A stretch of DNA of 64,000 bases. It comes from Nitrosomonas sp. Is35. Its GTDB lineage: Bacteria > Pseudomonadota > Gammaproteobacteria > Burkholderiales > Nitrosomonadaceae. A program made the position numbers and the translations under genes. Shown here in pieces: positions 3,049-41,192 of the stretch (positions within the stretch are counted from its first letter, which is position 1; the number at the start of each line of letters is the position of its first letter). Under the pieces are notes generated by a model. That model saw only the letters and a list, made by a program, of their open reading frames with translations. It was not told the DNA's origin and did no database searches. The stretch spans positions 1,302,001 through 1,366,000 of the forward strand of contig NZ_JAWJZH010000001.1 in the NCBI RefSeq assembly GCF_033063295.1. Direction: 5' to 3'.

Positions 3049-3937
3049 GTTGATTTTACAAGATCAGGCCGCTGGCTTGCGCAACCTGACTTCCTATCGG
3101 AAGCGTGATCCGGCGCGCGTCTTTACCATCGCCGGCGGTAAATCGCGTGTCGGGAAAACCAGTGTGGTTGTGAATCTTGCGGCAGCGCTGGCGCAGAACG
3201 GCCAACGGGTTTTATTGATCGATGAAAATCCTTGCCATAACAATATCTGCACCAGTTTGGGTTTGCAGGCGCGCTTCGATTTACTGCATGTGATTCATAA
3301 AGATAAAAGACTCGACCAGGTGCTGCTGCAAGGCCCGGAAAATATCACGATCCTATCGGCGATGCGCGGCATTCATGCATTGAACAAGTTGAACCCGCTC
3401 GAACAGGATTGGCTGGTTAAAAGCTTTTCGGAGCTGACGGAGTCCGTCGATATCGTGTTGATCGATACCGCTATGACCGGCACGACGCATGTTCTACCGC
3501 TAAGCCTGGCTTCGGAACAAGTCATGATCGTGATTTCCGGTTCTGCGGCATCGATTACCGGTGCTTACGCGCTGATCAAAATCATGAGCCAGGAGTATTC
3601 CAAGCAGCATTTCCTGATTCTGGTGAATAAGGTTGAATCGGAAACGGAAGCACTGATGATTTATCAGAATTTATACCGGGTGGCGCGCCAGTATTTATCG
3701 GTATCGCTTGAATATGCCGGTTACGTTGAAAGTGATGAGCGCTTACGGAGCGCAACGCAATTGTGTAAACCGGTGATCGAGATGTTTCCGGTTTCGCAAG
3801 CGGCTATTTGCTTCCGGCATGTAGCAGAAAATATTTTGCGCTCTACTTGCCCGGATAAATATAGCGGGGGAATGGATCATTTCATGCAGCGATTGATTAT
3901 GACGAGTCATTTGAGTATGGCTAATTTTACGGTGTGA
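3041..3937 (+). CDS. flhG: Flagellar number regulator FlhG (FleN/MinD-like ATPase)
   Basis: MinD/ParA-family ATPase that stimulates FlhF and limits flagellar number. The 298-residue protein has a deviant Walker A motif, GGKSRVGKTS, at residues 32-41 and a Walker B segment VDIVLIDTA near residues 137-145. It also has the short basic N-terminal stretch with the DQAAGLR motif, which in FlhG homologues activates FlhF. The segment after the first strand reads LLIDENP, where most relatives have DAD or DLD; the effect is unknown. The start codon lies inside the end of flhF, as expected for a coupled operon. Confidence 0.92.
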   Translation: MTRLILQDQAAGLRNLTSYRKRDPARVFTIAGGKSRVGKTSVVVNLAAALAQNGQRVLLIDENPCHNNICTSLGLQARFDLLHVIHKDKRLDQVLLQGPENITILSAMRGIHALNKLNPLEQDWLVKSFSELTESVDIVLIDTAMTGTTHVLPLSLASEQVMIVISGSAASITGAYALIKIMSQEYSKQHFLILVNKVESETEALMIYQNLYRVARQYLSVSLEYAGYVESDERLRSATQLCKPVIEMFPVSQAAICFRHVAENILRSTCPDKYSGGMDHFMQRLIMTSHLSMANFTV

Positions 3938-3943
3938 TTGAAT

Positions 3944-4660
3944 ATGTATACTGCGACTGGAACCAAAACGATTGATAAAGAACAATTTGTCACTGAATTT
4001 ACGCCGCTGGTCAAGCGCATTGCTTACCATATGATGACGCGCCTGCCAGCTAGCGTACAAGTTGATGATTTGATTCAGGCCGGCATGATCGGCTTACTGG
4101 ATGCGATTAATCGCTACGAAGGATCTTACGGGCGCCAGTTTGAGAGTTATGCGGCGCAACGGATACGCGGTTCGATTCTGGATGAGTTGCGCGAAGCCGA
4201 TTGGCTGCCGCGCAGTATCCGTAAAAAGATGCGCCGGATCGAAGCGGCGGTGAATATGCTGGAACAACGGAATGGGTGTGCGCCGAGTGAGCTGGATCTG
4301 GCAGCCGAGCTGGAAATGTCGCTGGATGAATATCACGAGACCCTGCAAAGCGCACGCGGCGCGCAGTTGATTTATTACGAAGATTTTCAGCAGGAAGATG
4401 AAGAGCCTTTTCTGGATCGGCTTTTCATTGATTCCGAAGGCGATCCGCTGAATGCACTGCTGGATGAAAATTTCCGCAGCACATTGATTGCCGCCATTGA
4501 TAACCTCCCGCCACGGGAAAAGCAGGTCATGGGTATGCATTACGAGCAGGAAATGAATCTGAGGGAAATCGGTGAAGTGCTGGGTGTCAGCGAATCCCGT
4601 GTATGTCAGTTGCACACGCAAGCAGTGGCAAGGCTGCGCAGCCGCTTAAGAAATACTTGA
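3944..4660 (+). CDS. fliA: RNA polymerase sigma factor FliA (sigma-28)
   Basis: Sigma-28 directs transcription of late flagellar genes and is held inactive by FlgM until the hook is finished. The protein is about 238 residues, the normal length. Region 2 is visible (VDDLIQAGMIGLLDAI near residues 36-51, then FESYAAQRIRGSILDELRE), followed by region 3 and region 4 (LPPREKQVMGMHY and LREIGEVLGVSESRVCQLH). A TTG six bases upstream is also in frame, but the ATG at 3944 fits better. It follows the flhG stop by six bases. flgM, coding for its anti-sigma factor, lies 2 kb downstream on the other strand with a sigma-28-like promoter. Confidence 0.96.
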   Translation: MYTATGTKTIDKEQFVTEFTPLVKRIAYHMMTRLPASVQVDDLIQAGMIGLLDAINRYEGSYGRQFESYAAQRIRGSILDELREADWLPRSIRKKMRRIEAAVNMLEQRNGCAPSELDLAAELEMSLDEYHETLQSARGAQLIYYEDFQQEDEEPFLDRLFIDSEGDPLNALLDENFRSTLIAAIDNLPPREKQVMGMHYEQEMNLREIGEVLGVSESRVCQLHTQAVARLRSRLRNT

Positions 4661-4703
4661 AGTGTTTTATACCGTCTATCCGCGCCATTAAACGGATTAT
4701 GTG

Positions 4704-5462
4704 ATGCTTAAAAAATCAAAGATGGATTTGAACAGCGTTTTTGGCATTCTGCTGGCCTTGGTGGCGATCGTAGGCGGGCAGTTTCTTGAAGGCGGGCATA
4801 TCAGTTCTTTGTTGCAAGCGGCCGCATTTGTAATCGTGATGGGTGGTACTGTCGGAGCGGTTTTACTGCAAAGTCCGATGAAAATTTTCATCAATGGTGT
4901 GCGAATGGGGGCATGGGTTTTCTTTCCACCGGAACAATCTCCGCAAGCGCTGATTAAACAAATTATCAACTGGGCGCATATCGCCCGAAAGGAAGGATTG
5001 CTGGTGCTTGAAGAGTTTGTCCCTGGTGTAAAGGATCCATTGACAAAGAAGGGATTGCAACTGTTGGCGGATGGCAGTCCGCCGGAAAAACTGCGTGAAG
5101 CTTTGGAAATTGACGTTTTGGCTTTGGAGAATCATCAACGTCAATCGGCCCGGATCTGGGAAGCTGCCGGCGGTTATGCGCCGACAATTGGCATTTTGGG
5201 CGCTGTACTCGGATTGATTCACGTCATGGAAAACTTATCCGATCCCAATCTCCTGGGAAACGGTATTGCGGTTGCTTTTGTGGCAACAGTCTACGGTGTT
5301 GGATTAGCCAATCTGGTTTTCTTACCGGTAGCAAATAAGCTCAAAACTATCATCGGCGAGCATGTCGTGATGCAGGAAATTCTGGTCGATGGCTTTGTGG
5401 CGATTGCGCAGGGTGAGCATCCGCGACTCATCGAGAGCCGGTTGAACGGCTATTTCATTTAA
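4704..5462 (+). CDS. motC: Flagellar motor stator protein MotC (MotA family)
   Basis: Inner-membrane stator subunit that, with MotD, couples ion flow to flagellar rotation. About 252 residues with four predicted membrane helices: two near the N-terminus (residues about 9-50) and two in the C-terminal half. The conserved MotA segment with the channel proline is present (GYAPTIGILGAVLGLIHVM, about residues 155-173). The charged cytoplasmic loop lies between the two helix pairs. GTG at 4701 is directly upstream of the ATG and in frame; the ATG is preferred. The name motC rather than motA follows the gene position after flhF-flhG-fliA and next to motD, as in Pseudomonas; it is a positional inference. 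Confidence 0.9.
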   Translation: MLKKSKMDLNSVFGILLALVAIVGGQFLEGGHISSLLQAAAFVIVMGGTVGAVLLQSPMKIFINGVRMGAWVFFPPEQSPQALIKQIINWAHIARKEGLLVLEEFVPGVKDPLTKKGLQLLADGSPPEKLREALEIDVLALENHQRQSARIWEAAGGYAPTIGILGAVLGLIHVMENLSDPNLLGNGIAVAFVATVYGVGLANLVFLPVANKLKTIIGEHVVMQEILVDGFVAIAQGEHPRLIESRLNGYFI

Positions 5463-5510
5463 ATCTGATGCAAGCAAAATAACGATCAGTCAATAATTCT
5501 TGAAAATCCG

Positions 5511-6302
5511 ATGCTGAGAAAAAGAAAACAAAAAAATGACGATCACACTGAAAATCAGGAACGCTGGCTGGTGTCCTATGCTGATTTCATAACGCTGCTG
5601 TTTGCTTTTTTTGTGGTGATGTATGCCGTTTCGTCGGTGAATGAAGGGAAGTACCGCGTTCTAAGTTCTTCGTTAGTGAGCGCATTTAAGAGTAGTAATC
5701 CAACAAACGCGGTGCCGGTGCAGTCCACGGAATTCATACCGATTAATATCCACCCATCAAATGAAACGGATTCAATCAAACTGATTGATAATCTCAGTAT
5801 TCATAAAGCAAAAAAACAAGAAAAAATGAAAAGCATGGCGAAGAATATTCTTCATGCTTTGGATCCTTTAGTGAAGGATGGTCAAGTGAGAATTACGCAA
5901 AGTTCTTTGGGAATAACGGTTGAAATCAATGCCAGCGTTCTTTTTTCACCAGGGCAAGCTAAACTGGCCGAGAATTCAAGCTTGACACTGCAAGCGGTCG
6001 CCAATGTGATCAAAGGCCATGAGCATGAGATTCATGTTGAAGGGCATACGGATAATATGCCGATCCATAATGGGAGTTTTCCATCAAACTGGGAATTGTC
6101 GACAGCTCGAGCTAGTAGCGTGGTCAGATTGTTTATAGAAAATGGTGTTGAAGCACACCGGCTGACTGCAGTAGGATATGGCGAGAATCGGCCGATAGAA
6201 AGTAATGACGCCCCTGAGGGAAGAAAAAGAAACCGCCGGGTATCGGTTATGATTCTATCTGCCGATCCGGATAAAGTAACTGAAATTCCTATCGTTGAGT
6301 AA
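5511..6302 (+). CDS. motD: Flagellar motor stator protein MotD (MotB family)
   Basis: Peptidoglycan-anchored stator subunit paired with MotC. The 263-residue protein starts with a basic cytoplasmic tail and has one membrane helix at about residues 22-42. That helix carries the ion-binding aspartate D25 in SYADFITLLF. It ends in an OmpA-like peptidoglycan-binding domain (about residues 140-250) with EGHTDN and the NWELSTARA and RNRRV motifs. The 48-base gap after motC fits one operon. No strong sigma-28 promoter was found between fliA and motC, so transcription may continue from upstream. The call between MotB and MotD rests on neighbourhood. Confidence 0.92.
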   Translation: MLRKRKQKNDDHTENQERWLVSYADFITLLFAFFVVMYAVSSVNEGKYRVLSSSLVSAFKSSNPTNAVPVQSTEFIPINIHPSNETDSIKLIDNLSIHKAKKQEKMKSMAKNILHALDPLVKDGQVRITQSSLGITVEINASVLFSPGQAKLAENSSLTLQAVANVIKGHEHEIHVEGHTDNMPIHNGSFPSNWELSTARASSVVRLFIENGVEAHRLTAVGYGENRPIESNDAPEGRKRNRRVSVMILSADPDKVTEIPIVE

Positions 6303-8163: not shown

Positions 8164-8997
8164 ATGAATGTACAACTGTGGAATCCTGATTTTATTGAAC
8201 TTTCGCCGATATTTAAGCCTTTCTTGTATCTGCAAAGATATTTCAAGAATCAGCGGTCCTGGCCCGGGCCTGACGATTTAAATAAGCTCTGCGCTCTGCA
8301 GAACCGGCAAATGCTTACCCGATCCGGGAAAACAGTCCGCTTTGTGCCGCAGATCCCCGGAAAAGATGCTGTTGAACAACGATATGAATCAGGAATTTAC
8401 TTGACCGGTGAGATACCGACAAGAACCCAAAATTGGCACGATTTTTTTAATGCGTTGGTATGGCAAATTTTTCCGCAAGCTAAATCCGTGTTGAACCAGC
8501 TGCACTATCAGGCACAGTTGGTTGAGTTATCCAATCAAGTACGGAATCGTTGTAAGTTACGAGATGCAGCAACGCTGTTCGATGAATCTGGGGTGATTGT
8601 CGTATGTAGTCAGGCAGCATTAATTCAGTTGATAAAAGATTTTGAATGGAAGGAATTGTTTTGGCGGCAACGCAAGACGGTGTTGCTATCAATGCGTTTT
8701 TTTGTTTTTGGACATGGGCTGTATGAGAAGGCATTAAATCCCTATGCCGGTATGACGGGCAAAGCGATAATTTTTAATGTGCCGGAAACTTTCTTTGCGC
8801 AGGATTTACCGGCTCAATTGTGTGCTATCGACACCATGTTGGCGCTGTACTTATTGCAAACGTTATCGTCGACTTCCGATTTAGTGCCGGTTCCGCTTTT
8901 AGGATATCCGGGCTGGATTGGCGATAACGACAGTGAGTTCTACTATGAAAATAAACAATATTTTCGTGATCGACCTAAGCCAAAACAAATGAGATAA
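8164..8997 (+). CDS. DUF3025 family protein
   Basis: A 277-residue soluble protein of the DUF3025 family, function unknown. Family hallmarks include the N-terminal 'RSWPGPDDLN', the central 'NWHDFFNALVWQIFPQAK' and the C-terminal 'PLLGYPGWIGDN'. An AGGA-type ribosome site directly precedes the ATG. It follows the EI24-type gene closely and is followed by a long hairpin (8999-9058) that may end the transcript. No catalytic motif can be assigned from the sequence. Confidence 0.8.
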   Translation: MNVQLWNPDFIELSPIFKPFLYLQRYFKNQRSWPGPDDLNKLCALQNRQMLTRSGKTVRFVPQIPGKDAVEQRYESGIYLTGEIPTRTQNWHDFFNALVWQIFPQAKSVLNQLHYQAQLVELSNQVRNRCKLRDAATLFDESGVIVVCSQAALIQLIKDFEWKELFWRQRKTVLLSMRFFVFGHGLYEKALNPYAGMTGKAIIFNVPETFFAQDLPAQLCAIDTMLALYLLQTLSSTSDLVPVPLLGYPGWIGDNDSEFYYENKQYFRDRPKPKQMR

Positions 8998-8998
8998 G

Positions 8999-9058
8999 CG
9001 TTTTTCTTTATCGATCTTGATCGATACGTTGATTTATCGACTTTTCTAAGAAAAACGC
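8999..9058 (+). terminator. Hairpin between the DUF3025 gene and ndk
   Basis: GCGTTTTTCTT (8999-9009) pairs perfectly with AAGAAAAACGC (9048-9058) across a 38-base loop, which itself holds a TCGATCTTGATCGA palindrome. It starts right after the stop codon. There is no terminal T-run, so it may be a processing or weak termination structure rather than a classical terminator. Confidence 0.45.
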
Positions 9059-9150
9059 CCGATGCCGGAATTAATCCATATGTTTTACGAATCCTGGCTG
9101 TTTTTTTGTTAAAATACACCGCTTAATTTACTAATTTATTGGAGTATTTA

Positions 9151-9576
9151 ATGGCAATTGAAAGGACACTATCCATCATTAAACCGGATGCTGTGGCGAA
9201 GAATGTAATTGGGCAAATTTATTCCCGTTTTGAATCAAATGGTTTGAAAATCATTGCGGCGCGAATGATGCACTTGTCACAAGCTGAAGCTGAGCAATTC
9301 TACGCCGTGCATCGTGCGCGTCCGTTTTTTAACGATCTGGTTAAATTCATGACATCGGGTCCTGTGATGGTGCAAGTACTGGAAGGGGATGAAGCCATTA
9401 AAAAGAACCGCGATCTAATGGGCGCTACCGACCCCAAGAAAGCTGAGAAAGGAACGATTCGCGCCGATTTTGCTGACAGCATTGACGCCAATGCAGTACA
9501 TGGTTCCGATGCACCGGAAACGGCCGCGGTTGAAATTGCCTGTTTTTTTCCAACATTAAGTATCCATTCCCGTTGA
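9151..9576 (+). CDS. ndk: Nucleoside diphosphate kinase
   Basis: Transfers the gamma phosphate of ATP to nucleoside diphosphates through a phosphohistidine. With the ATG at 9151 ([15 protein letters not shown]) the protein has the standard 141 residues; an in-frame start at 9139 exists but the family always begins at this methionine, and GGAGT sits at the right distance. The catalytic histidine is in the [16 protein letters not shown] segment. The extreme C-terminus is slightly unusual ([14 protein letters not shown]). It begins the conserved ndk-rlmN-pilF-rodZ-ispG-hisS block. Confidence 0.97.
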
Positions 9577-34021: not shown

Positions 34022-34161
34022 GAAACACCGATTAATTGCCTGCACAAGCGATTTGCTGCGTTGGGTGGTGCTCGGAAACTCGCCTATCTTGCGATATGTC
34101 TCGTTTCCTGCGCTCCATCCGCCTTGCAACTCATCTTGCTCGGCGAATTACTCAGTGTTTC
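34022..34161 (-). repeat. MITE-like element, copy A (between nrdA and nrdB)
   Basis: About 140 bp with imperfect terminal inverted repeats: GAAACACCGATTAATT at the left end and the reverse complement of the right end GAAACACTGAGTAATT (14 of 16). The whole element, read on the minus strand, aligns along its length with the + strand at 39567-39707, including the shared core CAAGATAGGCGA and TGGAGCG/CGGAGCG. Internal identity is roughly 65-70% by eye. It codes for nothing recognisable. It starts four bases after the nrdA stop and splits the nrdA-nrdB operon. Confidence 0.65.
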
Positions 34162-34189: not shown

Positions 34190-35380
34190 ATGCTGACATT
34201 TGAAGACGAACCGCAACAACCGCAAACACCACCAGTCAGCGCCATGCCGCGCACCGCCTTGCACGATTTTGAATTGCCGCTGGCAACACCGGCGCAAGAT
34301 GACCGCGATCACAGCACCGCCAGCCATCAGGCGGCCGCGGATGACGTGGCCGGCAGCGCCAACCGCCGCATTTCAGTTGAGGACAAATCCATCATCAACT
34401 GCAAAGCGGACGTCAATCAATTGGTGCCGTTCAAGTACAAATGGGCGTGGGATAAATACCTCGGTGCTTGCGCCAACCACTGGATGCCGCAGGAAATCAG
34501 CATGAGCCGCGATATCGCGCTGTGGAAAGATCCGAGTGGCCTGACCGAGGACGAACGCCGTCTGGTCAAGCGCAATCTGGGTTTCTTTGTTACCGCCGAT
34601 TCGCTGGCGGCCAACAACATCGTGCTCGGCACCTACCGCCACATCACCAACCCGGAATGCCGCCAGTATCTGCTGCGTCAGGCATTCGAGGAAGCGATTC
34701 ATACCCATGCGTATCAGTACATCGTCGAATCACTGGGACTGGACGAAGGCGAGATTTTCAACGCGTACCACGAAGTGCCGTCGATCCGCGACAAGGACGA
34801 ATTTCTGATTCCGTTCATCGATACGCTGACCAATCCGCACTTCAAAACCGGCACATTGGAAACCGATCAGCAACTGCTCAAAAGCCTGATCGTGTTCGCC
34901 TGCATCATGGAAGGGCTGTTTTTCTACGTCGGTTTCACGCAGATTCTGGCATTGGGACGGCAAAACAAAATGACCGGCGCGGCCGAGCAATACCAATACA
35001 TCCTGCGCGACGAATCGATGCATTGTAATTTCGGCATCGACGTGATCAACCAGATCAAAATGGAAAATCCGCAGCTGTGGACCAAAGCGTTCCGCGACGA
35101 AATCGGCGCATTGATGCAAAAAGCCGTGGCGCTGGAATACCGCTACGCCGAAGACACTATGCCGCGCGGCGTGCTCGGCATGAACGCGCCGATGTTCAAG
35201 GAATACCTGCGCTACATCGCCAACCGCCGCTGCCAGCAAATCGGCCTGGACGCGCTGTACCCGAACGCCAACAACCCGTTCCCATGGATGTCGGAAATGA
35301 TCGATCTCAAAAAGGAAAAGAATTTCTTTGAGACACGCGTGACGGAGTATCAAACGGGTGGGGCGTTGAGTTGGGATTGA
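34190..35380 (+). CDS. nrdB: Ribonucleoside-diphosphate reductase subunit beta (class Ia)
   Basis: Radical-generating subunit with a di-iron tyrosyl cofactor. The 396-residue protein has all iron ligands in family context: D in [12 protein letters not shown], the ExxH pair in [13 protein letters not shown] in [10 protein letters not shown], and ExxH in [11 protein letters not shown]. The radical tyrosine is four residues after the first ligand histidine (HTHAY). A polar N-terminal extension of about 65 residues precedes the core, as in other betaproteobacteria. AAGGAG precedes the ATG. A diverged partial copy of its last 265 bases plus the following 55 lies at 35841-36163. Confidence 0.97.
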
Positions 35381-35469
35381 GGGGAGTGCGACAGGTGCAG
35401 TCCGTTTATCAACATTTTTTCTTGGATATATTACGTGTGCTTGCATAAGCAAAGGTGTCGCGATAAGTC

Positions 35470-35712
35470 ATGAAACTTTGTTTCGTTGGAGTTACATCTA
35501 TTCTGTTTCTCTTGGGTTGCACCACGGTTCAAAAAATTAAACGCCCTGAAGGTGTAACCGAGTTTCTTATTGCTTGTGGTGCAGGTTCCGGCTGGAACAT
35601 TTGTTATGAAAAAGCCAATGAGCTATGTCCATTGGGATATAAGACACTTTTCGAAGATGCAGGTTTCAACCGAAAGGAGCTACGCATTTCGTGTCCAACT
35701 ACCAGTGAGTAA
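35470..35712 (+). CDS. Small lipoprotein, hypothetical
   Basis: 80 residues with a signal peptide ending in the lipobox LLGC (lipidated cysteine near residue 17), then a short mature part with four further cysteines (LIACGAG, NICYEKANELC, RISCPT). The cysteine number suggests disulfide bonds in the periplasm. I do not recognise a named family. It is bracketed by the true nrdB and the nrdB fragment, so it may have arrived with that fragment. Confidence 0.6.
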   Translation: MKLCFVGVTSILFLLGCTTVQKIKRPEGVTEFLIACGAGSGWNICYEKANELCPLGYKTLFEDAGFNRKELRISCPTTSE

Positions 35713-35801
35713 TCATGGTACTGCAAACTTGGGATCTAATCAGTCATTCCAGTGGATACGCTTTGTGTCGTTGAGTTCCAGATCGTCTCAACAGCTCGTA
35801 G

Positions 35802-35826
35802 GTTGGGGTGAGGTACGAACCCCAAC
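35802..35826. repeat. REP-like palindrome
   Basis: GTTGGGGT (35802-35809) pairs with ACCCCAAC (35819-35826) around GAGGTACGA. The surrounding GTAGGTTGGGGTGAGG...GAACCCCAACAC form resembles a palindromic interspersed repeat seen in many proteobacteria and cyanobacteria. It ends 15 bases before the nrdB fragment begins, so it marks the left edge of the duplicated segment. Confidence 0.55.
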
Positions 35827-35840
35827 ACAACAAAGTCGCC

Positions 35841-36163
35841 TGATGAAAAAGGCCGTGGCGCTGGAATACCGCTACGCCGAAAACACCATGCCGCGCGGCG
35901 TGCTCGGTATGAACGCACCGATGTTCAGGAATACCTGCGCTACATCGCCAACCGCCGCTGCCAGCAAATCGGTTTGGATGCGCTTACCCGAACGCCAATA
36001 ACCCGTTCCCGTGGATGACGGAAATGATCGACCTGAAGAAAGAAAAGAATTTCTTTGAAACGCGCGTGACCGAGTATCAAACGGGCGGGGCGTTGAGTTG
36101 GGATTGAGGGTTGTAGTAGTTGGCGATCCGTTTATGCAACATTTTTTGTCGGATATATTGCGT
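35841..36163 (+). pseudogene. Partial nrdB copy: 3' end and downstream flank, frameshifted
   Basis: Aligns with 35112-35436. It covers the codons for the last 87 residues of NrdB, the stop, and about 55 bases of the downstream flank (TCCGTTTAT...CAACATTTTTT...GGATATATT). Two single-base deletions break the frame (TTCAAGGAA to TTCAGGAA; GCGCTGTACC to GCGCTTACC). Apart from those, nearly all of about 20 substitutions are synonymous third-position changes, for example GGC to GGT, CTG to TTG and GAC to GAT. It has no start and no upstream part of nrdB, so it is non-functional. Confidence 0.92.
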
Positions 36164-36196
36164 TAATCCTCAATAGACGAAGATCAAGGAGAATCA

Positions 36197-36670
36197 ATGG
36201 AAATTAGTGCATCAGCGTCATTTTGGATCGGTATGATAGGGACGCTTGTGGGTGTCCTAAGTGGTGGCATAGCAGTTTATCAGTGGGCTGTTATTAACGA
36301 GGCAAAAAAGAGGCGCCATGAAATTCAGTTTATCTTGGCTGGTGTGGGTCATCTTGTGCTAAGTAAGTGCCAGAGTTGGAATAACCAAATTGCATTGCTT
36401 GCTAGGCCTGAAACAGCTGATGGTCTAGGGATTTTTCGAGTGCATGTTAGTGCAAGAGATGATATGAATGAGATTCACAGTCTAGTTACTGCGCTAGAAG
36501 GAACTATCGATTCAAGCTCTTCGGCGTCTAAAGCACTACTTCAGAAAAGTATAGAGCAAGCAAAGCTAAACAACGAACTTCAAGAAACGGCTCTGAAGAA
36601 TCCAACTAGGCATGAACCATTAGTAAATAGGGCTGAAGAGCCGAGATCGGAAAGTGGTGGTGCTAAATAA
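36197..36670 (+). CDS. Hypothetical membrane-anchored protein, first gene of pYEATS module
   Basis: 157 residues: a short N-terminus, one clear membrane helix (about residues 9-30, FWIGMIGTLVGVLSGGIAVY), then a basic turn and a mostly helical cytoplasmic part ending in a charged tail (NRAEEPRSESGGAK). I recognise no family. AAGGAG precedes the ATG. It lies just after the nrdB fragment and 58 bases before the pYEATS-like gene in the same direction; both are membrane-anchored and have lower GC than the neighbouring core genes. I infer a two-component unit, function unknown. Confidence 0.6.
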   Translation: MEISASASFWIGMIGTLVGVLSGGIAVYQWAVINEAKKRRHEIQFILAGVGHLVLSKCQSWNNQIALLARPETADGLGIFRVHVSARDDMNEIHSLVTALEGTIDSSSSASKALLQKSIEQAKLNNELQETALKNPTRHEPLVNRAEEPRSESGGAK

Positions 36671-36673
36671 CAT

Positions 36674-36698
36674 TGCTGCGCGATAAAACTGCGCAGCA
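36674..36698 (+). terminator. Hairpin between the two module genes
   Basis: TGCTGCGC (36674-36681) pairs perfectly with GCGCAGCA (36691-36698) around GATAAAACT. It has no T-run, so it may reduce read-through or protect mRNA rather than terminate. Confidence 0.4.
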
Positions 36699-36728
36699 TC
36701 GGTGACTTCTACGTTAGGTGATACGCGA

Positions 36729-37262
36729 ATGACAACTTCGGAGGTAATTTCACTTGTTCAAGCGATCATCTGGCCTACATTCGCTCTGATAGTTGTTTTT
36801 GTATTTCGCCGAAGCCTCATCAAACTGCTTTCAGCGGTTGAGAAGCGAATAGATTCTGGGGCTGAAGTAACGAGTACTTGGGTTACATTTGGTGCGGTTC
36901 CGTCAAACCTAAAATCGCCCGAAGGTAACGCCCCCGTAACCGATAGCCACTTGGCACTCATCCACAGCAGTTGGCGTTATCCGAAGAAAGATGCCGAATA
37001 CAAAAGACCGATGTACACCTTTCATGTTGTGATCCAGGCAACTGATGAGGTTTTGGATAGAATCGAGAGCGTCAAATATAGCCTTCATCCCTCATACCCA
37101 AACCCGATCCAGATAGTGACCGATAGAAAGTCGCGGTTTAAACTCAAAGAATTGGCTTGGGGAGAATCCAGTGTTCGTGCGGAGATTAAGATCAAGGAAC
37201 AGGAGCAAACTATCAAGCTCAGCAGATACATCAACCTCACTCAATCTGGCCCACGGATATAG
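36729..37262 (+). CDS. Membrane protein with C-terminal pYEATS-like domain
   Basis: 177 residues from ATG 36729 (MTTSEVISLV); an upstream in-frame start at 36702 is less likely because it overlaps the intergenic hairpin region. One membrane helix at about residues 10-28 is followed by a linker. A C-terminal domain (about residues 92-170) reads MYTFHVVIQATDEVLDRIES and KYSLHPSYPNP, then LKELAWGESSVRAEIKI. The order 'VxYxLHPxxPxP ... WGe-x-x-V' fits the prokaryotic YEATS (pYEATS) domain, a beta-sandwich related to eukaryotic acyl-lysine readers. pYEATS proteins have been linked by comparative genomics to membrane-associated conflict systems. The domain call is by eye and needs a profile search. 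Confidence 0.6.
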   Translation: MTTSEVISLVQAIIWPTFALIVVFVFRRSLIKLLSAVEKRIDSGAEVTSTWVTFGAVPSNLKSPEGNAPVTDSHLALIHSSWRYPKKDAEYKRPMYTFHVVIQATDEVLDRIESVKYSLHPSYPNPIQIVTDRKSRFKLKELAWGESSVRAEIKIKEQEQTIKLSRYINLTQSGPRI

Positions 37263-37445
37263 GATATACCTAACATTGCAATCAAAGGGATCGTCGCCTT
37301 TTTGCGGGGTTCTGGAGATTGTATTCGACACTGAATTACATCAGTCTAATGAAGTTTGGGCAAAACTTTGTGGCCCAGTTAGTTGGGAAGAATCGCATAA
37401 TAAGCGTATTAAGATGTACGTATTACCGGATGCAACTATGTAATA
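37263..37445 (+). other. Possible gene remnant between the pYEATS gene and the fumC fragment
   Basis: A frame open from 37171 continues past the pYEATS stop and ends at 37443. Its last 60 residues (GYRIYLTLQSKGSSPFCGVL and on to IKMYVLPDATM) look protein-like in composition. There is no ribosome site, and the N-terminal part merely overlaps the pYEATS gene. It may be the 3' remnant of another gene, cut off when the fumC fragment was joined directly behind it. I do not recognise it. Confidence 0.3.
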
Positions 37446-37542
37446 CCGTGAAGAACACGACACGATGAGTGTGGTCGAGGTGCCCGCCGAAGCATTGTGG
37501 GGCGCGTGAACGTAGCGTTCGCTGCAGAATTTCACGAAATTA
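37446..37542 (+). pseudogene. Partial fumC copy: 5' end, with stop codons
   Basis: Aligns with the start of fumC at about 39816-39912 (CCGTGAAGAAC, then GTGGTCGAGGTGCCCGCCG, then TGTGGGGCGCG, then TGCAGAATTTCA). It covers roughly codons 4-35 of FumC. Two C-to-T changes turn CAA and CAG codons into TGA and TAG, and other changes are synonymous (GCG CTG to GCA TTG, CGC to CGT). The similarity fades after 37542. It is a dead fragment. Confidence 0.88.
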
Positions 37543-37611: not shown

Positions 37612-37848
37612 GTGAATGACATCAGTTGGAAACCGAAAGCGCTGAAACAGGTTGAGAAAATCAAGGCTGCCGCTGTGCGCAAAAGAATTTTTACTGAAGT
37701 TCAGTCGCTGGCTTATTTTCCGGATTGCCAAGGTGTCAAGAAACTTGCCAATCATGCGTATAACTACCGGCTGCGAGTTGGCGATTATCGGGTATTTTTC
37801 GAGTTTGACGGCAGCGTGCATGTTATTCCATTTCTAAATCAAACATGA
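37612..37848 (+). CDS. Type II toxin, RelE/ParE superfamily
   Basis: 78 residues, basic, with the RelE fold pattern: MNDISWKPKALKQVEKIKAA, then VQSLAYFPDCQGVKKLANHA, then YRLRVGDYRVFFEFDGSVHV. RelE-type toxins cleave mRNA in the ribosome. The RxxxGDYRV element near the C-terminus is the usual conserved part. The start is GTG. The antitoxin gene follows 107 bases later in the same direction, the toxin-first order of HigBA-like and some RelE/XRE pairs. It follows immediately after the fumC fragment. Confidence 0.85.
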   Translation: MNDISWKPKALKQVEKIKAAAVRKRIFTEVQSLAYFPDCQGVKKLANHAYNYRLRVGDYRVFFEFDGSVHVIPFLNQT

Positions 37849-37921
37849 GTTTGTCAACTATCCTTGTCGTATTAATCATACTGTCCTTCGGATAGCTTTC
37901 GCGTCATGTTTGATTTGGAAA
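37831..37921. repeat. 18-base inverted repeat spanning the toxin-antitoxin gap
   Basis: TTTCTAAATCAAACATGA (37831-37848, the last codons and stop of the toxin gene) is matched in reverse complement by TCATGTTTGATTTGGAAA (37904-37921), 17 of 18 bases, across a 55-base loop. It could fold in mRNA as a long stem that sets toxin/antitoxin ratio, or be an operator pair for the XRE protein. Confidence 0.6.
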
Positions 37922-37955
37922 CGGAATTATTGATATTGAGGAGGTGAAAATCGCG

Positions 37956-38288
37956 ATGAGTGCACTTATTAATTACCAAACCATCCTGGATAGCACCGGA
38001 AAACCGGCTTTTGTCGTCGTGCCTTATGCCGAGTTTGTCAAACTTCCCGGCGTGGTACGCCCGGGCATGATCCCCAACGAGGTTGTTGGTAAACGCATCA
38101 TGAATGAAGTCAGTATGCTCGCCGCCTGGCGCGAATACCTGATGCTGACGCAAGAGGAAATGGCTAAACGCATGGGGATTACGCAAGCCGGTTACGCACA
38201 GATAGAAGCTGCCAAACGCCCGCGCAAGGCAACCCTTGAGAAAGCCGCAGCGGCTATGGGTATTACCTTGGATCAGCTCGCGTATTAA
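37956..38288 (+). CDS. XRE-family antitoxin
   Basis: 110 residues starting MSALINYQTILDSTGKPAF; GAGGAGG at 37938-37944 supports ATG 37956 over the GTG at 37944. The N-terminal part resembles a PHD/toxin-binding strand region (GKPAFVVVPYAEFVKL). The C-terminal part is a Cro/C1 helix-turn-helix (LTQEEMAKRMGITQAGYAQIE, about residues 66-90). It should neutralise the RelE-type toxin and repress the pair. The XRE domain lies at the C-terminus, as in other antitoxins of this toxin-first type. Confidence 0.85.
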   Translation: MSALINYQTILDSTGKPAFVVVPYAEFVKLPGVVRPGMIPNEVVGKRIMNEVSMLAAWREYLMLTQEEMAKRMGITQAGYAQIEAAKRPRKATLEKAAAAMGITLDQLAY

Positions 38289-38419
38289 AGGGCGCGTTTG
38301 GAGTTAAACAAAATCGCAATCCTGGTCAACCAATTTCCCCAATTCATTCCATTTATAGTCTTGTCTTGATGGATTTTGCAATCTTCACTAACAAACGAAT
38401 CTGTCCCCTTCGATATTTT

Positions 38420-38499: not shown

Positions 38500-38964
38500 A
38501 TGAACAAAAACCAAGCATCGCTAGCTAGAAAGCAATTGGAAAGACGTCTCGCACCCTTGCGTGAAGCAGGGGTTGTTGCGCCGCCGCGAGGATGGATAAA
38601 AGCCATTCGTGAAGCACTTGGCATGACTGCCCGCCAGCTTGCCGCGCGTATGGATGCTTCCCCTTCACGTATTCCGGTGATCGAAAAAGCGGAAGTGACT
38701 GGAGCAACTACGATCAAGACCTTGCGTGAAGCCGCCGAGGCAATGAACTGTACCTTTGTGTATGCTTTCGTGCCGGCAAAACCGCTCGATGATATTCTGC
38801 GTGAGCGTGCCATTCAGAAAACGCGCAAAGACATTGCCCGGCTCGATCACACCATGCGACTGGAAAACCAAGCTTTGCTCAAATCCGATCTCGACGATGA
38901 ACAGCGGCGCATGGTCGAACTGATTCTATCAGGCTCACTAAAAGGGTTATGGGAGGATAAGTAG
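38500..38964 (+). CDS. Mobile mystery protein A (XRE-type, likely antitoxin)
   Basis: 154 residues matching the TIGR02612-type family, which always occurs beside mobile mystery protein B. An N-terminal segment LARKQLERRLAPLRE precedes an XRE helix-turn-helix (REALGMTARQLAARMDASPS, about residues 38-58). C-terminal helices follow, with LDHTMRLENQAL and a final LSGSLKGLWEDK. It overlaps nothing and lies seven bases before the Fic gene. It is the likely DNA-binding antitoxin and regulator of the pair. Confidence 0.85.
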   Translation: MNKNQASLARKQLERRLAPLREAGVVAPPRGWIKAIREALGMTARQLAARMDASPSRIPVIEKAEVTGATTIKTLREAAEAMNCTFVYAFVPAKPLDDILRERAIQKTRKDIARLDHTMRLENQALLKSDLDDEQRRMVELILSGSLKGLWEDK

Positions 38965-38971
38965 CATTGTC

Positions 38972-39565
38972 ATGTCAGATCCTTTATTTATCGAGGACGA
39001 TGATGCGAATACTCCACTTACAGACGAAGAGCGTGAACAGCTTATTCCTGCCTATATCACGTTGCGGCACGAACTCAACGAAGCGGAGCAAATCAACATC
39101 GGTGAGGCGTTGCGCTGGGCTACCGCACGCAAGAAACGGGATGTGCTGGAGCAAAATTTCTTGCGCCAATTGCATAAGCGCATGTTTGGGGATGTGTGGC
39201 GTTGGGCAGGGCAATATCGCACCTCAGCCCGCAACATTGGTGTCGATGCCTATCGGATCACAATGGATATGCATCAAGCGATTGACGATGCTTGTTACTG
39301 GATCGAACATAAAACCTATCCGCCGGATGAAATTGCGGTGCGATTTAGTCACCGCCTTGTTGCAATCCATCCGTTTCCCAACGGAAACGGACGCATTTCG
39401 CGTCTTATCGGCGATCTTCTCGCCCAGCAGCTTGAACAGGAGCCATTCACATGGGGGCGTGCAAATCTGGTCGATGCCGGAGAAACCCGCGCTCGCTATA
39501 TTGAAGCCTTACGTGCCGCTGACAATCACGATATAAAGCCACTCCTGCTATTTGCCCGTTCTTAA
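38972..39565 (+). CDS. Mobile mystery protein B (Fic-family AMP-transferase)
   Basis: 197 residues. The Fic core motif HPFPNGNGR (residues about 133-141) is complete, including the catalytic histidine, so AMP-transferase or similar activity is possible. WRWAGQYRTSARNIG and the preceding helix are typical of the TIGR02613 family. Fic proteins modify target proteins such as gyrase subunits, usually held in check by an inhibitory helix or antitoxin; here the partner should be the upstream XRE protein. The stop codon TAA (39563-39565) lies inside the terminal repeat of the MITE-like element that follows. Confidence 0.88.
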   Translation: MSDPLFIEDDDANTPLTDEEREQLIPAYITLRHELNEAEQINIGEALRWATARKKRDVLEQNFLRQLHKRMFGDVWRWAGQYRTSARNIGVDAYRITMDMHQAIDDACYWIEHKTYPPDEIAVRFSHRLVAIHPFPNGNGRISRLIGDLLAQQLEQEPFTWGRANLVDAGETRARYIEALRAADNHDIKPLLLFARS

Positions 39566-39712
39566 AGAAATGCTGATTAATTCGGCGAACGAGAGGAAGC
39601 ACGAGGCGCACGGAGCGAAGCAGCCAAGACCTATCAACAAGATAGGCGAGGATGCGAGTACCGCGCAACGAAGTGATTCGCTCGTGCAATCAATTAATCA
39701 GCGTTTCCTTAA
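39562..39712 (+). repeat. MITE-like element, copy B (between the Fic gene and fumC)
   Basis: About 151 bp. The left end TTAAAGAAATGCTGATTAAT and the reverse complement of the right end TTAAGGAAACGCTGATTAAT match at 18 of 20 bases. The interior aligns, in opposite orientation, with copy A at 34022-34161. No coding capacity. The left terminal repeat supplies the stop codon of the Fic gene. Confidence 0.68.
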
Positions 39713-39806
39713 CTGTTGGAATGATAAACTCATGGTAATTCAGCGATGCGTTGGTAAACCAGAACCGCAATTTATTCAATGATCTAATTTGATGAGGTAA
39801 CTATCT

Positions 39807-41192
39807 ATGCAAACCCGTGAAGAACGCGACACCATGGGCGTGGTCGAGGTGCCCGCCGCAGCGCTGTGGGGCGCGCAAACGCAGCGCTCGTTGCAGAATT
39901 TCAAGATTTCCGGCGAGCGTATGCCGGTGGCGCTGATTCATGCGCTGGCTAGGGTCAAGCGCGCTGCCGCCAAGGTCAATCACGATTTGGGGTTGCTCAA
40001 TGCGGCCAGCGCGGCGGCGATCATCGAGGCGGCCGACGAAGTGACCGCCGGTCATTTCGACGATCAGTTTCCGCTGGTGGTGTGGCAAACCGGTTCCGGC
40101 ACCCAAACCAACATGAATGTCAACGAAGTGCTGGCGAACCGCGCTTCGGAAATTCTCGGCGGCGGGCGCGGCGCGGATCGCAAAGTGCACCCCAACGACG
40201 ACGTCAACAAAGGGCAATCGTCCAACGATGTGTTTCCCACCGCGATGCACGTCGCTGCCGTGCAGGAATTGCAGCATCGCTTGATTCCGGCGCTTCAATT
40301 ATTGCGTGAAACCTTGGCGGCCAAGGCGCAAGCGTTCGAATCCATCGTCAAAATCGGCCGCACGCATTTGCAGGATGCGACGCCACTCACCTTGGGGCAG
40401 GAATTTTCCGGTTATGTGGCGCAATTGGATCACGGCTTGCGGCATGTGCAAGCATCGATGGGGCATGTGTGCGAACTGGCGCTTGGTGGCACGGCGGTTG
40501 GAACCGGATTGAATGCGCATCCGGAGTTTGCGACACGTGTGGCGGCGGAATTGTCGCGGCTGAGCGGACTTCCTTTTGTCACTGCACCGAACAAGTTTGA
40601 AGCATTAGCAAGCAACGATGCCTTGGTGCACGCGCACGGCGCGTTGAAAACATTGGCCGCGTCACTGATGAAAATTGCCAACGATATCCGCTGGCTGGCA
40701 TCCGGGCCGCGCTGCGGCATCGGCGAATTGCGCATTCCCGAGAATGAGCCGGGCAGTTCGATCATGCCGGGTAAAGTGAACCCGACGCAATCGGAAGCGA
40801 TGACGATGGTGTGCTGCCAAGTGATGGGCAACGATGTGGCGATCAACATGGGTGGTGCGCTGGGGAATTTCGAGCTGAACGTGATGAAACCGCTGATCAT
40901 TCATAATTTCCTGCAAAGCGTGCGCTTGCTGGCCGATGCGATGGTCAGCTTCAACGACCATTGCGCCACCGGCATCGAAGCCAATCGCGAGCGTATCGAC
41001 GCGCTGATGCACAATTCGCTGATGCTGGTGACTGCATTGAATCCCCATATCGGCTACGACAAAGCCGCCGAGATTGCGAAGAAAGCGCACCGCGAAGGCA
41101 CGACATTGAAAGCCGCCGCGATTGCGACCGGTTACGTCACAGCAGAGCAGTTCGATGCCTGGGTGGTGCCGGAAAAGATGACCGGCAAATAG
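39807..41192 (+). CDS. fumC: Fumarate hydratase class II
   Basis: Iron-independent fumarase of the TCA cycle. 461 residues, the standard length. The signature [15 protein letters not shown] (about residues 315-329) carries the catalytic serine. [20 protein letters not shown] (about 185-204) holds the catalytic histidine. [17 protein letters not shown] is in the N-terminal half. GAGGT precedes the ATG at a good distance. A degenerate copy of its first 100 bases lies 2.3 kb upstream (37446-37542). The gene ends six bases before the UMF1 transporter gene. Confidence 0.97.

Follow-up and report, generated by a model that had tools for sequence, protein, structure and literature searches.

Between the core genes nrdB and fumC, the chromosome of Nitrosomonas sp. 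Is35 carries several accessory genes together with truncated copies of both neighbours, and we propose that these broken copies are probably scars in an integron-like cassette slot devoid of an integrase. The proposal comes from the comparison of a stretch of 64,000 nucleotides (the window, positions 1,302,001 to 1,366,000 of contig NZ_JAWJZH010000001.1) with other genomes of the genus. Along this stretch, an intact nrdB is followed by a lipoprotein-like open reading frame (ORF), a copy of the nrdB 3' end, two further ORFs, a piece of the fumC 5' end, toxin/antitoxin ORFs and an intact fumC. The initial annotation had described both fragments and this gene order, which repeat search and the reading of ORFs and domains confirmed. 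Judging from sequence comparison, an integron-type insertion site accounts best for the variable genes, and the two fragments are read as scars of separate events.

In the proposed scenario, an attI-like insertion site would be seated in the nrdB-fumC gap of the N. oligotropha/ureae-like part of Nitrosomonas, and integron gene cassettes with their attC sites would have entered it at G^TT by means of an integron integrase that either acted in trans or has since disappeared. Species would differ in the small gene or genes directly behind nrdB because cassettes were inserted at this site. Homologous recombination in the flanks and illegitimate joins would then have stacked alleles of the interval, with truncated core genes as the scars. 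The action of the integrase, the order of the events and their direction are what we infer from the comparisons below.

An attI-like site behind nrdB

The source genome, G000 among the 85 Nitrosomonas genomes searched (G-numbers; L-numbers designate fetched loci), measures 3.3 Mb in 2 contigs with a completeness of 100%, and the closest named nrdB among the matches listed is that of N. oligotropha Nm75 (96%). With the window's own genome included, nrdB and fumC could be read on one stretch in 52 of the 85. Their adjacency is genus-wide: the gap measures 33-173 bp in 16 of these 52 intervals, bearing out an earlier suggestion that the two genes were once neighbours, and 416-6874 bp in the other 36, hereafter the long intervals. 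Contents such as scars and blocks were compared for intervals of at least 200 bp; one interval, that of G071, is flawed by Ns interrupting nrdB. Homologies, junctions, the mosaic structure of nrdB and the distribution of features could be observed directly in this set.

Behind the nrdB stop, many relatives share the sequence CAGTTTATGCGACATTTTTTGTCGTATATATTACGTT and diverge directly after GTTRRRY. The right flank of the conserved site begins GTTATATATATGCAATGAATG, and the far side of the slot starts GTTATATATATGCAATGAATGAAATG and is kept up to fumC. With at most 11 mismatches the left motif was found in 17 of the 36 long intervals, 20 shuffles per interval giving minima of 11-18; with at most 12 mismatches the right motif was found in 10, the shuffles giving minima of 14-19. 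A plain hotspot of homologous recombination, considered as an explanation of the locus, was dropped once the GTT boundaries appeared.

The same core of ~20 nt recurs ~100 nt upstream of intI, the integrase gene, and is oriented away from that gene, at five of 13 integrase loci (G026, G066, G067, G090 and G100). It is also present in G097 and G068 (C100), and beside a piece of intI in G063 (C46). A 41-nt sequence model of the attI-like site (R1, 23 training rows) gave, at E <= 0.01, 144 matches in 57 of the 85 genomes, of which as many as 23 may be training rows; as read from coordinates, 20 matches stand at nrdB and at least 12 within ~300 bp of an integrase match. As a control, 64 nrdB loci of records not named Nitrosomonas (1.05 Mb, loci of that name being left out) yielded no R1 match at E <= 1.

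Putative cassette cargo and candidate attC sites

The genes standing directly behind nrdB are extremely diverse. Among 35 long intervals, 34 have their first ORF of at least 60 aa on the + strand, and in 32 of the 35 no more than 130 bp separate its start from the nrdB stop; these first ORFs fall into 32 families among 35 genomes (the one counted for G000 overlaps the lipoprotein ORF). Scanning nine cargo proteins of the slot returned two over the Pfam cut-off (a PIN domain and a GmrSD N-terminal domain), two below it and five without a match.

A 69-position attC model (R2) was built from eight attC, four belonging to intI arrays and four to dispersed sites, with no nrdB interval among its training sequences; it gave 10 matches at E <= 1 in 54 nrdB loci (574 kb). 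Eight of them lie inside nrdB-fumC intervals, which make up 12.8% of the bases searched (binomial P 2.5e-6). All eight are on the nrdB strand, with E from 1.3e-5 to 0.039, in G016 (two), G102, G090, G076, G027, G072 and G108, that is, in seven of the 51 intervals of other genomes. The non-Nitrosomonas-named control of 1.05 Mb gave a single match (E 0.34). In the window, the candidate between the two cassette ORFs (Table 1) is the best of eight R2 matches in 2071 bases, with a hairpin z of -3.0, and its 3' half resembles by eye an attC of the intI-bearing array in G090.

Two other approaches to attC detection were abandoned: a strict RYYYAAC/GTTRRRY scan missed every attC in the integron of G090, and a first attC alignment was left unused since its arms did not align.

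The first cassette ORF of the window is nearly an orphan, with one further weak match in the 85 genomes (29%, E 5e-4). The second encodes a prokaryotic YEATS (pYEATS) domain protein with four further distant matches there (33-36%); its listed ORF starts at 36702, and most close homologues have 177 aa, fitting a start at ~36729. A count of 122 relatives at E <= 0.001 in the protein collection includes the protein itself; many are lone sequences on short contigs, and a few carry the further accessions PF01582 or PF13676, which we take to be of Toll/interleukin-1 receptor (TIR) type. When slot cargo was compared with that of integron and dispersed loci, nine alignments passed, several of them repeats; among them, a slot ORF of G020 is 39% identical to an ORF in the integrase locus of G001, and a slot ORF of G107 is 36% identical to an ORF in L186.

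The nrdB fragment and the mosaic nrdB

In the repeat search, the nrdB copy appeared as three ungapped pieces (35841-35927, 35927-35984 and 35985-36110), 91-95% identical to 35112-35383, with a downstream flank (36137-36163) 89% identical to 35410-35436. Together with the fumC copy (37436-37537 against 39805-39906, 84%), it accounts for the only direct repeats of at least 60 nt reported in the whole window. The initial annotation had located the copy correctly; its limits need adjusting, the stop ending at 36107 and the conserved flank reaching 36165. Compared codon by codon with the resident 3' end, the copy shows 17 synonymous and three nonsynonymous changes and two 1-base deletions, very much as had been described. 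With 21% of random single changes expected to be synonymous, so few nonsynonymous ones have a binomial P of 1.4e-9. Because of this excess, most of the divergence of both copies arose in lineages where the gene was working, in agreement with the earlier view that the copy diverged as a functional gene; equal synonymous and nonsynonymous change, named at the time as speaking against that view, is absent.

Pieces of the nrdB 3' end were found in the interval of three genomes: G000, G080 (from codon 371-372) and, by a sensitive self-search, G084. The window's fragment begins exactly at the point where a palindrome resembling repetitive extragenic palindromic (REP) elements is cut, an element that is complete in other species, and the piece of G080 likewise begins at the end of a REP-like element.

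The resident nrdB is itself a mosaic. Over the 169 sites between 35212 and the stop, a single one separates it from G075, against 10-16 differences from G070, G029, G031, G076, G079, G080 and G108, and its 3' end groups with G075 (support 100/96) in a tree of 51 rows, built, like the clade tests, on the 49 genome rows passing filters. The first 922 nt group with G070/G029 (100/98), and a grouping of the resident gene with G075 is rejected for this 5' part (p-AU, from the approximately unbiased test, 0.0038). The nrdA gene of G000 groups with G070 (100/99); the 5'-part and nrdA trees used 18 hand-chosen genomes out of 51 others. The nrdB end common to the window and G075 would have been given by the lineage of G000, by that of G075 or by a third.

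Two alleles of the nrdB end would thus be joined in the window, one comprising nrdB, the lipoprotein gene and half of the REP-like palindrome, the other starting with the codon-308 end of another nrdB. With this second end would come an attI-like site and a pair of cassettes carrying the orphan ORF and the pYEATS gene. The non-homologous junction inside the REP-like element and the mosaic nrdB may reflect homology-facilitated illegitimate recombination, in which an imported segment has one homologous and one non-homologous junction; the clade tests say little about its direction. We favour the resident 3' end, with its lipoprotein cargo, as the import and the broken copy as the older end, because the mosaic and the broken copy would then result from one event and because the better attI-like site stands behind the fragment. 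Clade tests on 269 nt gave a p-AU of 0.145 for the fragment with G070 and G029.

Other results of the same tests count against an imported resident end. A single clade of the resident gene with G075, G070 and G029, which would make the resident end native, is not rejected (p-AU 0.217), nor are the resident gene with G070 and G029 (0.067), the fragment with G070 (0.381), or fragment and resident as sisters (0.087); the noncoding flanks of the two copies also share some states, as a local duplication would give. Among the 20 sites that distinguish the copies, a state other than that of the clade majority is carried by the fragment at 11, by the resident at eight and by both at one. With 11 against eight sites, the idea that the fragment carries the common alleles of the clade and the resident the odd ones was withdrawn.

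The fumC scar and the ParE/HTH and HTH/Fic blocks

The fumC piece belongs with a block of its own, in which genes with ParE_toxin and helix-turn-helix (HTH) HTH_3 domains stand side by side as in a type II toxin-antitoxin module, to judge by their predicted domains. At >=95%, the HTH protein of this block is present in 16 of the 85 genomes, always beside fumC (in G102, beside a truncated fumC), and 13 of these 16 carriers have a fumC 5' piece to the left of the block. The piece is full (~100 nt) in nine genomes and reduced to a remnant, from nt 62-76 to ~100, in four; G023 was counted by genome search alone, and no piece was seen in the carriers G103, G075 and G027. Over the genes compared in 14 genomes, the HTH gene is 92.9-97.4% identical to that of the window and fumC 76.9-90.7%; therefore, the ParE/HTH block appears to have moved between species at this place.

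This distribution is at odds with the initial annotation, in which one foreign block running from nrdB to fumC had left both fragments: the fumC piece travels with the toxin-antitoxin block in 13 genomes, 12 of which lack an nrdB piece, and a single foreign source of both scars was rejected, the fumC scar being tied to the separate ParE/HTH block. The proposed role of homologous recombination in the flanks held good, a crossover in fumC and the mosaic nrdB both attesting to it. In the stretch ahead of fumC and in the first windows of the gene, the closest relatives are G079 and G031 (95-96% at 39723, against 74% for G070), and further into the gene, at 40473, G070 reaches 87% against 77-79%; this switch of closest relative points to a crossover inside the window's fumC.

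The conserved right flank of the cassette site is matched just upstream of the fumC scar in G077, G090, G020, G022 and G080; because of this position, the scar is probably the old fumC start in these genomes and the start of the intact gene the newcomer. In the window, the old fumC start (nt 1-100) would have been displaced by the ParE/HTH block arriving with a new fumC 5' end, and the HTH/Fic block was probably added in the same way.

Other fumC pieces exist. G080 has a different one (nt 1-52) without the ParE/HTH block, and G102 a second one of 389 nt, right of the block and ahead of more cargo and the intact gene. The scars of G102 (L155, interval 3497-4754) are nested: a 39-nt remnant, the toxin-antitoxin block, the 389 nt of fumC, a GmrSD-domain gene and the intact fumC. 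In G084 (L169, interval 137-346 and 1413-1487), nrdB is followed by a piece from inside fumC and fumC is preceded by an nrdB 3' piece, so that both kinds of scar seem to have arisen independently there. Between the ParE and HTH genes of the window, ~100 nt with a short inverted repeat (37828-37926) are found in G029, G070, G075, G077, G102 and G103 and missing in G013, G020, G022, G027, G082, G090, G092 and G107.

Dispersed sites and integron relics

Sites recognised by R1 are not limited to nrdB. Of 20 further places fetched, 17 were read, and each is followed by an ORF of at least 90 aa, on the + strand and within ~120 nt in 14 of the 17; the distance is 305-394 nt in G035 and G090, and the ORF of G008 lies on the opposite strand. 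The right arm of the site is also present in nine of the 17. These dispersed sites (L193-L212) have a common left arm of ~190 nt and, in the same fraction, a right arm of ~75 nt. Some occupy the same locus in several species: one is common to G007, G030 and G108, and another stands beside a common 125-aa ORF in G029, G077, G079 and G102. G068 has 11 R1 matches, and two sites there stand beside N-terminal integrase pieces (contigs C31 and C92).

Behind the core of G090 stand ORFs separated by attC. R2 gave 31 matches at E <= 1, eight being its training sequences, in 32 integrase, dispersed and other loci. In G067, a strong attC match (L165:348-446; E 1.6e-5) stands downstream of fumC. The window's own genome has a second attI-like site (C1:1174742-1174778; L218, minus strand, ~5156-5800) with no intI beside it, behind which stand an SNase-domain gene and co-oriented ORFs. 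It also contains a relic integron (C1:1466222-1467318; L184:8223-9319), with a truncated N-terminal intI (ORF 8780-9319), an attC match (8223-8291, E 2.6e-10), and a lipoprotein-like ORF and another ORF on the other strand.

It is possible, and we advance it tentatively, that Nitrosomonas possesses a distributed integron. Besides intI arrays, attI-like landing sites with conserved arms would be spread across the chromosome. Some would occupy corresponding loci in several species, each would contain few cassettes, and an integrase subject to gain and loss would fill them in trans. One of them would be the nrdB-fumC slot, its core-gene scars recording later swaps of the slot by homologous recombination.

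Alternative explanations

Several observations weigh against a cassette slot at nrdB. A clear left motif is absent from 19 of the 36 long intervals, and 29 of them, the window's included, lack an R2 match. Two R2 matches fall outside the intervals, a strong one in L165 (E 1.6e-5) and one in L161 (E 0.96). The candidate attC of the window is below threshold in an R2 search of the whole window; of eight candidates folded, three (G016, G090 and the window) gave a significant bottom-strand structure, and an ad hoc duplex-energy scan for attC was discarded as powerless, two of four positive controls beating all shuffles. The family TIGR02249 (integron integrase) is over its cut-off in 21 of the 85 genomes, with no match listed near nrdB, and G000 has no integrase match over the cut-off, its N-terminal intI piece lying elsewhere. 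An empty-site query matched halves only, no match spanning an empty site in the 85 genomes. Finally, the core is absent from eight of the 13 integrase loci, which are of other integrase types; these types thus use other sites in the genus.

Among rival readings, the one put forward in the initial annotation is somewhat unlikely. It holds the fragment to be foreign, a donor nrdB end with its cargo having entered by homologous recombination in the flanking genes without any site-specific system. The fragment is indeed not the resident's sister in the best tree, diverged under purifying selection, and, in the last 169 nt, is 9-14 differences away from each species compared, and flank recombination is visible in both fumC and nrdB. 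However, the part that conflicts with its own gene is the resident 3' end, the fumC piece belongs with another block, and the GTT boundaries, the attI core and the attC matches are left unexplained.

That the conserved site is instead the target of another recombinase, or a dispersed repeat akin to miniature inverted-repeat transposable elements (MITEs) whose closeness to intI is a by-product, seems improbable. The arms shared by the dispersed copies (~190 nt left, 75 nt right) do exceed the core, many genomes bearing the site have no intI over the cut-off, and core-less loci form the majority of integrase loci (8/13). Yet the core of G090 has intI on one side and a series of ORFs with attC matches on the other, and in seven nrdB intervals the cargo ends in an attC recognised by an independently trained model.

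A local tandem duplication of the nrdB 3' end and flank, after which one copy decayed and a G075-like allele later converted the resident 3' end, is improbable in our view. It would account for the states shared by the noncoding flanks, and the grouping of fragment and resident as sisters, which the initial annotation had set against its own reading, is disfavoured and not rejected at a p-AU of 0.087. Against it, 17 synonymous changes out of 20 are not expected of a promoterless 3' stub, and the left junction falls inside a REP-like element.

An assembly artefact, which repeats of 270 and 100 nt at one locus might suggest, can hardly be credited in a genome of two contigs and 100% completeness where the copies differ by 8-16% and the fumC scar recurs in other assemblies.

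Features of the interval

The elements on which an integron-like slot would rest are listed in Table 1 with their neighbours. A 70-nt inverted pair (79%) links 34022-34091, in the nrdA-nrdB gap, with 39638-39707, upstream of fumC; the latter repeat sits in a 158-nt stretch absent from that place in G031 and is possibly a MITE. Rfam gave no match at E <= 1 on 30-44 kb of the window and none over gathering on four integron loci. PADLOC returned no match for the lipoprotein, first-cassette, pYEATS or ParE ORFs. In a plasmid search with the accessory block, the matches listed were mostly nrdB genes.

Table 1. Coordinates of genes, sites and scars around the nrdB-fumC interval (positions of the window)
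Feature	Position	Strand	Remarks
Resident intact nrdB, mosaic: 5' part with G070/G029, last 169 nt with G075	34190..35380	+	
Degenerate attI-like site behind resident nrdB	35410..35436	+	Model R1, E 7.8e-4 over window; outside R1 training set
Small lipoprotein-like ORF, nrdB-adjacent cargo	35470..35712	+	Without Pfam or PADLOC match
Left half of REP-like palindrome, cut after GTCGCC	35790..35840	+	Whole copies in other species' intervals
nrdB 3' fragment, codon 308 to stop, two 1-base deletions	35841..36107	+	
Better-kept attI-like site behind nrdB fragment, ending in insertion core GTTA	36128..36165	+	R1 37.9 bits, E 1e-10 over window; one of the 23 R1 training rows
Putative first cassette ORF, 157 aa, without family	36197..36670	+	
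Candidate attC, decayed, between two cassette ORFs, without 5' L box	36665..36719	+	R2 9.4 bits, E 0.14
Putative second cassette ORF, pYEATS domain protein	36729..37262	+	PF20305 E 2.3e-21
ACCTAAC directly after pYEATS stop, complement of GTTAGGT at its start	37268..37274	+	Putative attC R box remnant
fumC 5' scar, nt 1-100	37438..37537	+	
ParE-like toxin of fumC-linked block	37612..37848	+	PF05016 E 3.4e-8
HTH antitoxin-like protein, same ParE/HTH block	37944..38288	+	PF01381 E 8.8e-12
Stretch parting ParE/HTH block from fumC in other species; here joined to HTH/Fic block	38291..38362	+	
HTH protein of HTH/Fic block; also in G031, G079, G080	38500..38964	+	
Fic-domain protein of HTH/Fic block	38972..39565	+	PF02661 E 1e-13; PADLOC PDC-S04 E 8e-23
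Intact fumC	39807..41192	+	

Known systems and concluding remarks

Integrons have some history in this genus: Leon and Roy reportedly described the IntI of N. europaea, from the chromosomal integron of Nitrosomonas, in 2003, and Loot et al. are said to have reported attG secondary sites in 2024. The N. europaea integron is mentioned or cited in the accessible parts of PMC3108266, PMC2426708 and PMC9229058. The nrdB slot resembles the intI-bearing arrays of G090 and G067 in its attI-like core and its cassettes with candidate attC. It differs from the Nitrosomonas chromosomal integron in that no intI accompanies the site and its two arms stand ~20 nt closer; some integrase loci, for their part, lack the core.

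Clusters of attC sites lacking integron-integrases (CALINs) are described at fixed loci in Xanthomonas in the accessible part of PMC12444791, and as mobilised in trans in that of PMC11389934. As far as the accessible text of this literature portrays them, they compare with the nrdB slot and its candidate attC in having attC cassettes at conserved chromosomal loci away from intI that vary among species. They differ in being called from at least two attC, whereas the slot holds mostly one cassette and keeps an attI-like site at its left edge; G016 alone has two R2 matches in its nrdB interval, and the window has one decayed candidate. The attG sites, according to the accessible part of PMC12444791, likewise receive cassettes in the chromosome outside the integron, yet they are widely scattered and are neither attC nor attI, whereas the nrdB site is attI-like, has the core of integrase-linked sites and serves repeatedly at one locus. 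Hotspots of gene transfer between core genes, as presented in the accessible part of PMC5635113, show the same turnover of accessory genes between two conserved genes; the nrdB slot adds site-specific boundaries and core-gene scars. In the literature on Nitrosomonas integrons, CALINs and cassettes and on orphan attI-like sites, screened by title and abstract start and mostly outside subscription papers, we found no published report of such slots.

Integron surveys seek intI or clusters of attC, so that attI-like slots with a single cassette and no integrase could be missed. If the present reading is true, the reach of integrons in environmental bacteria would be underestimated. Cassettes placed behind nrdB, a gene needed for growth, could be expressed by it. 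The locus also keeps layers of recombination in the form of scars, which might reveal the order in which genes were gained.

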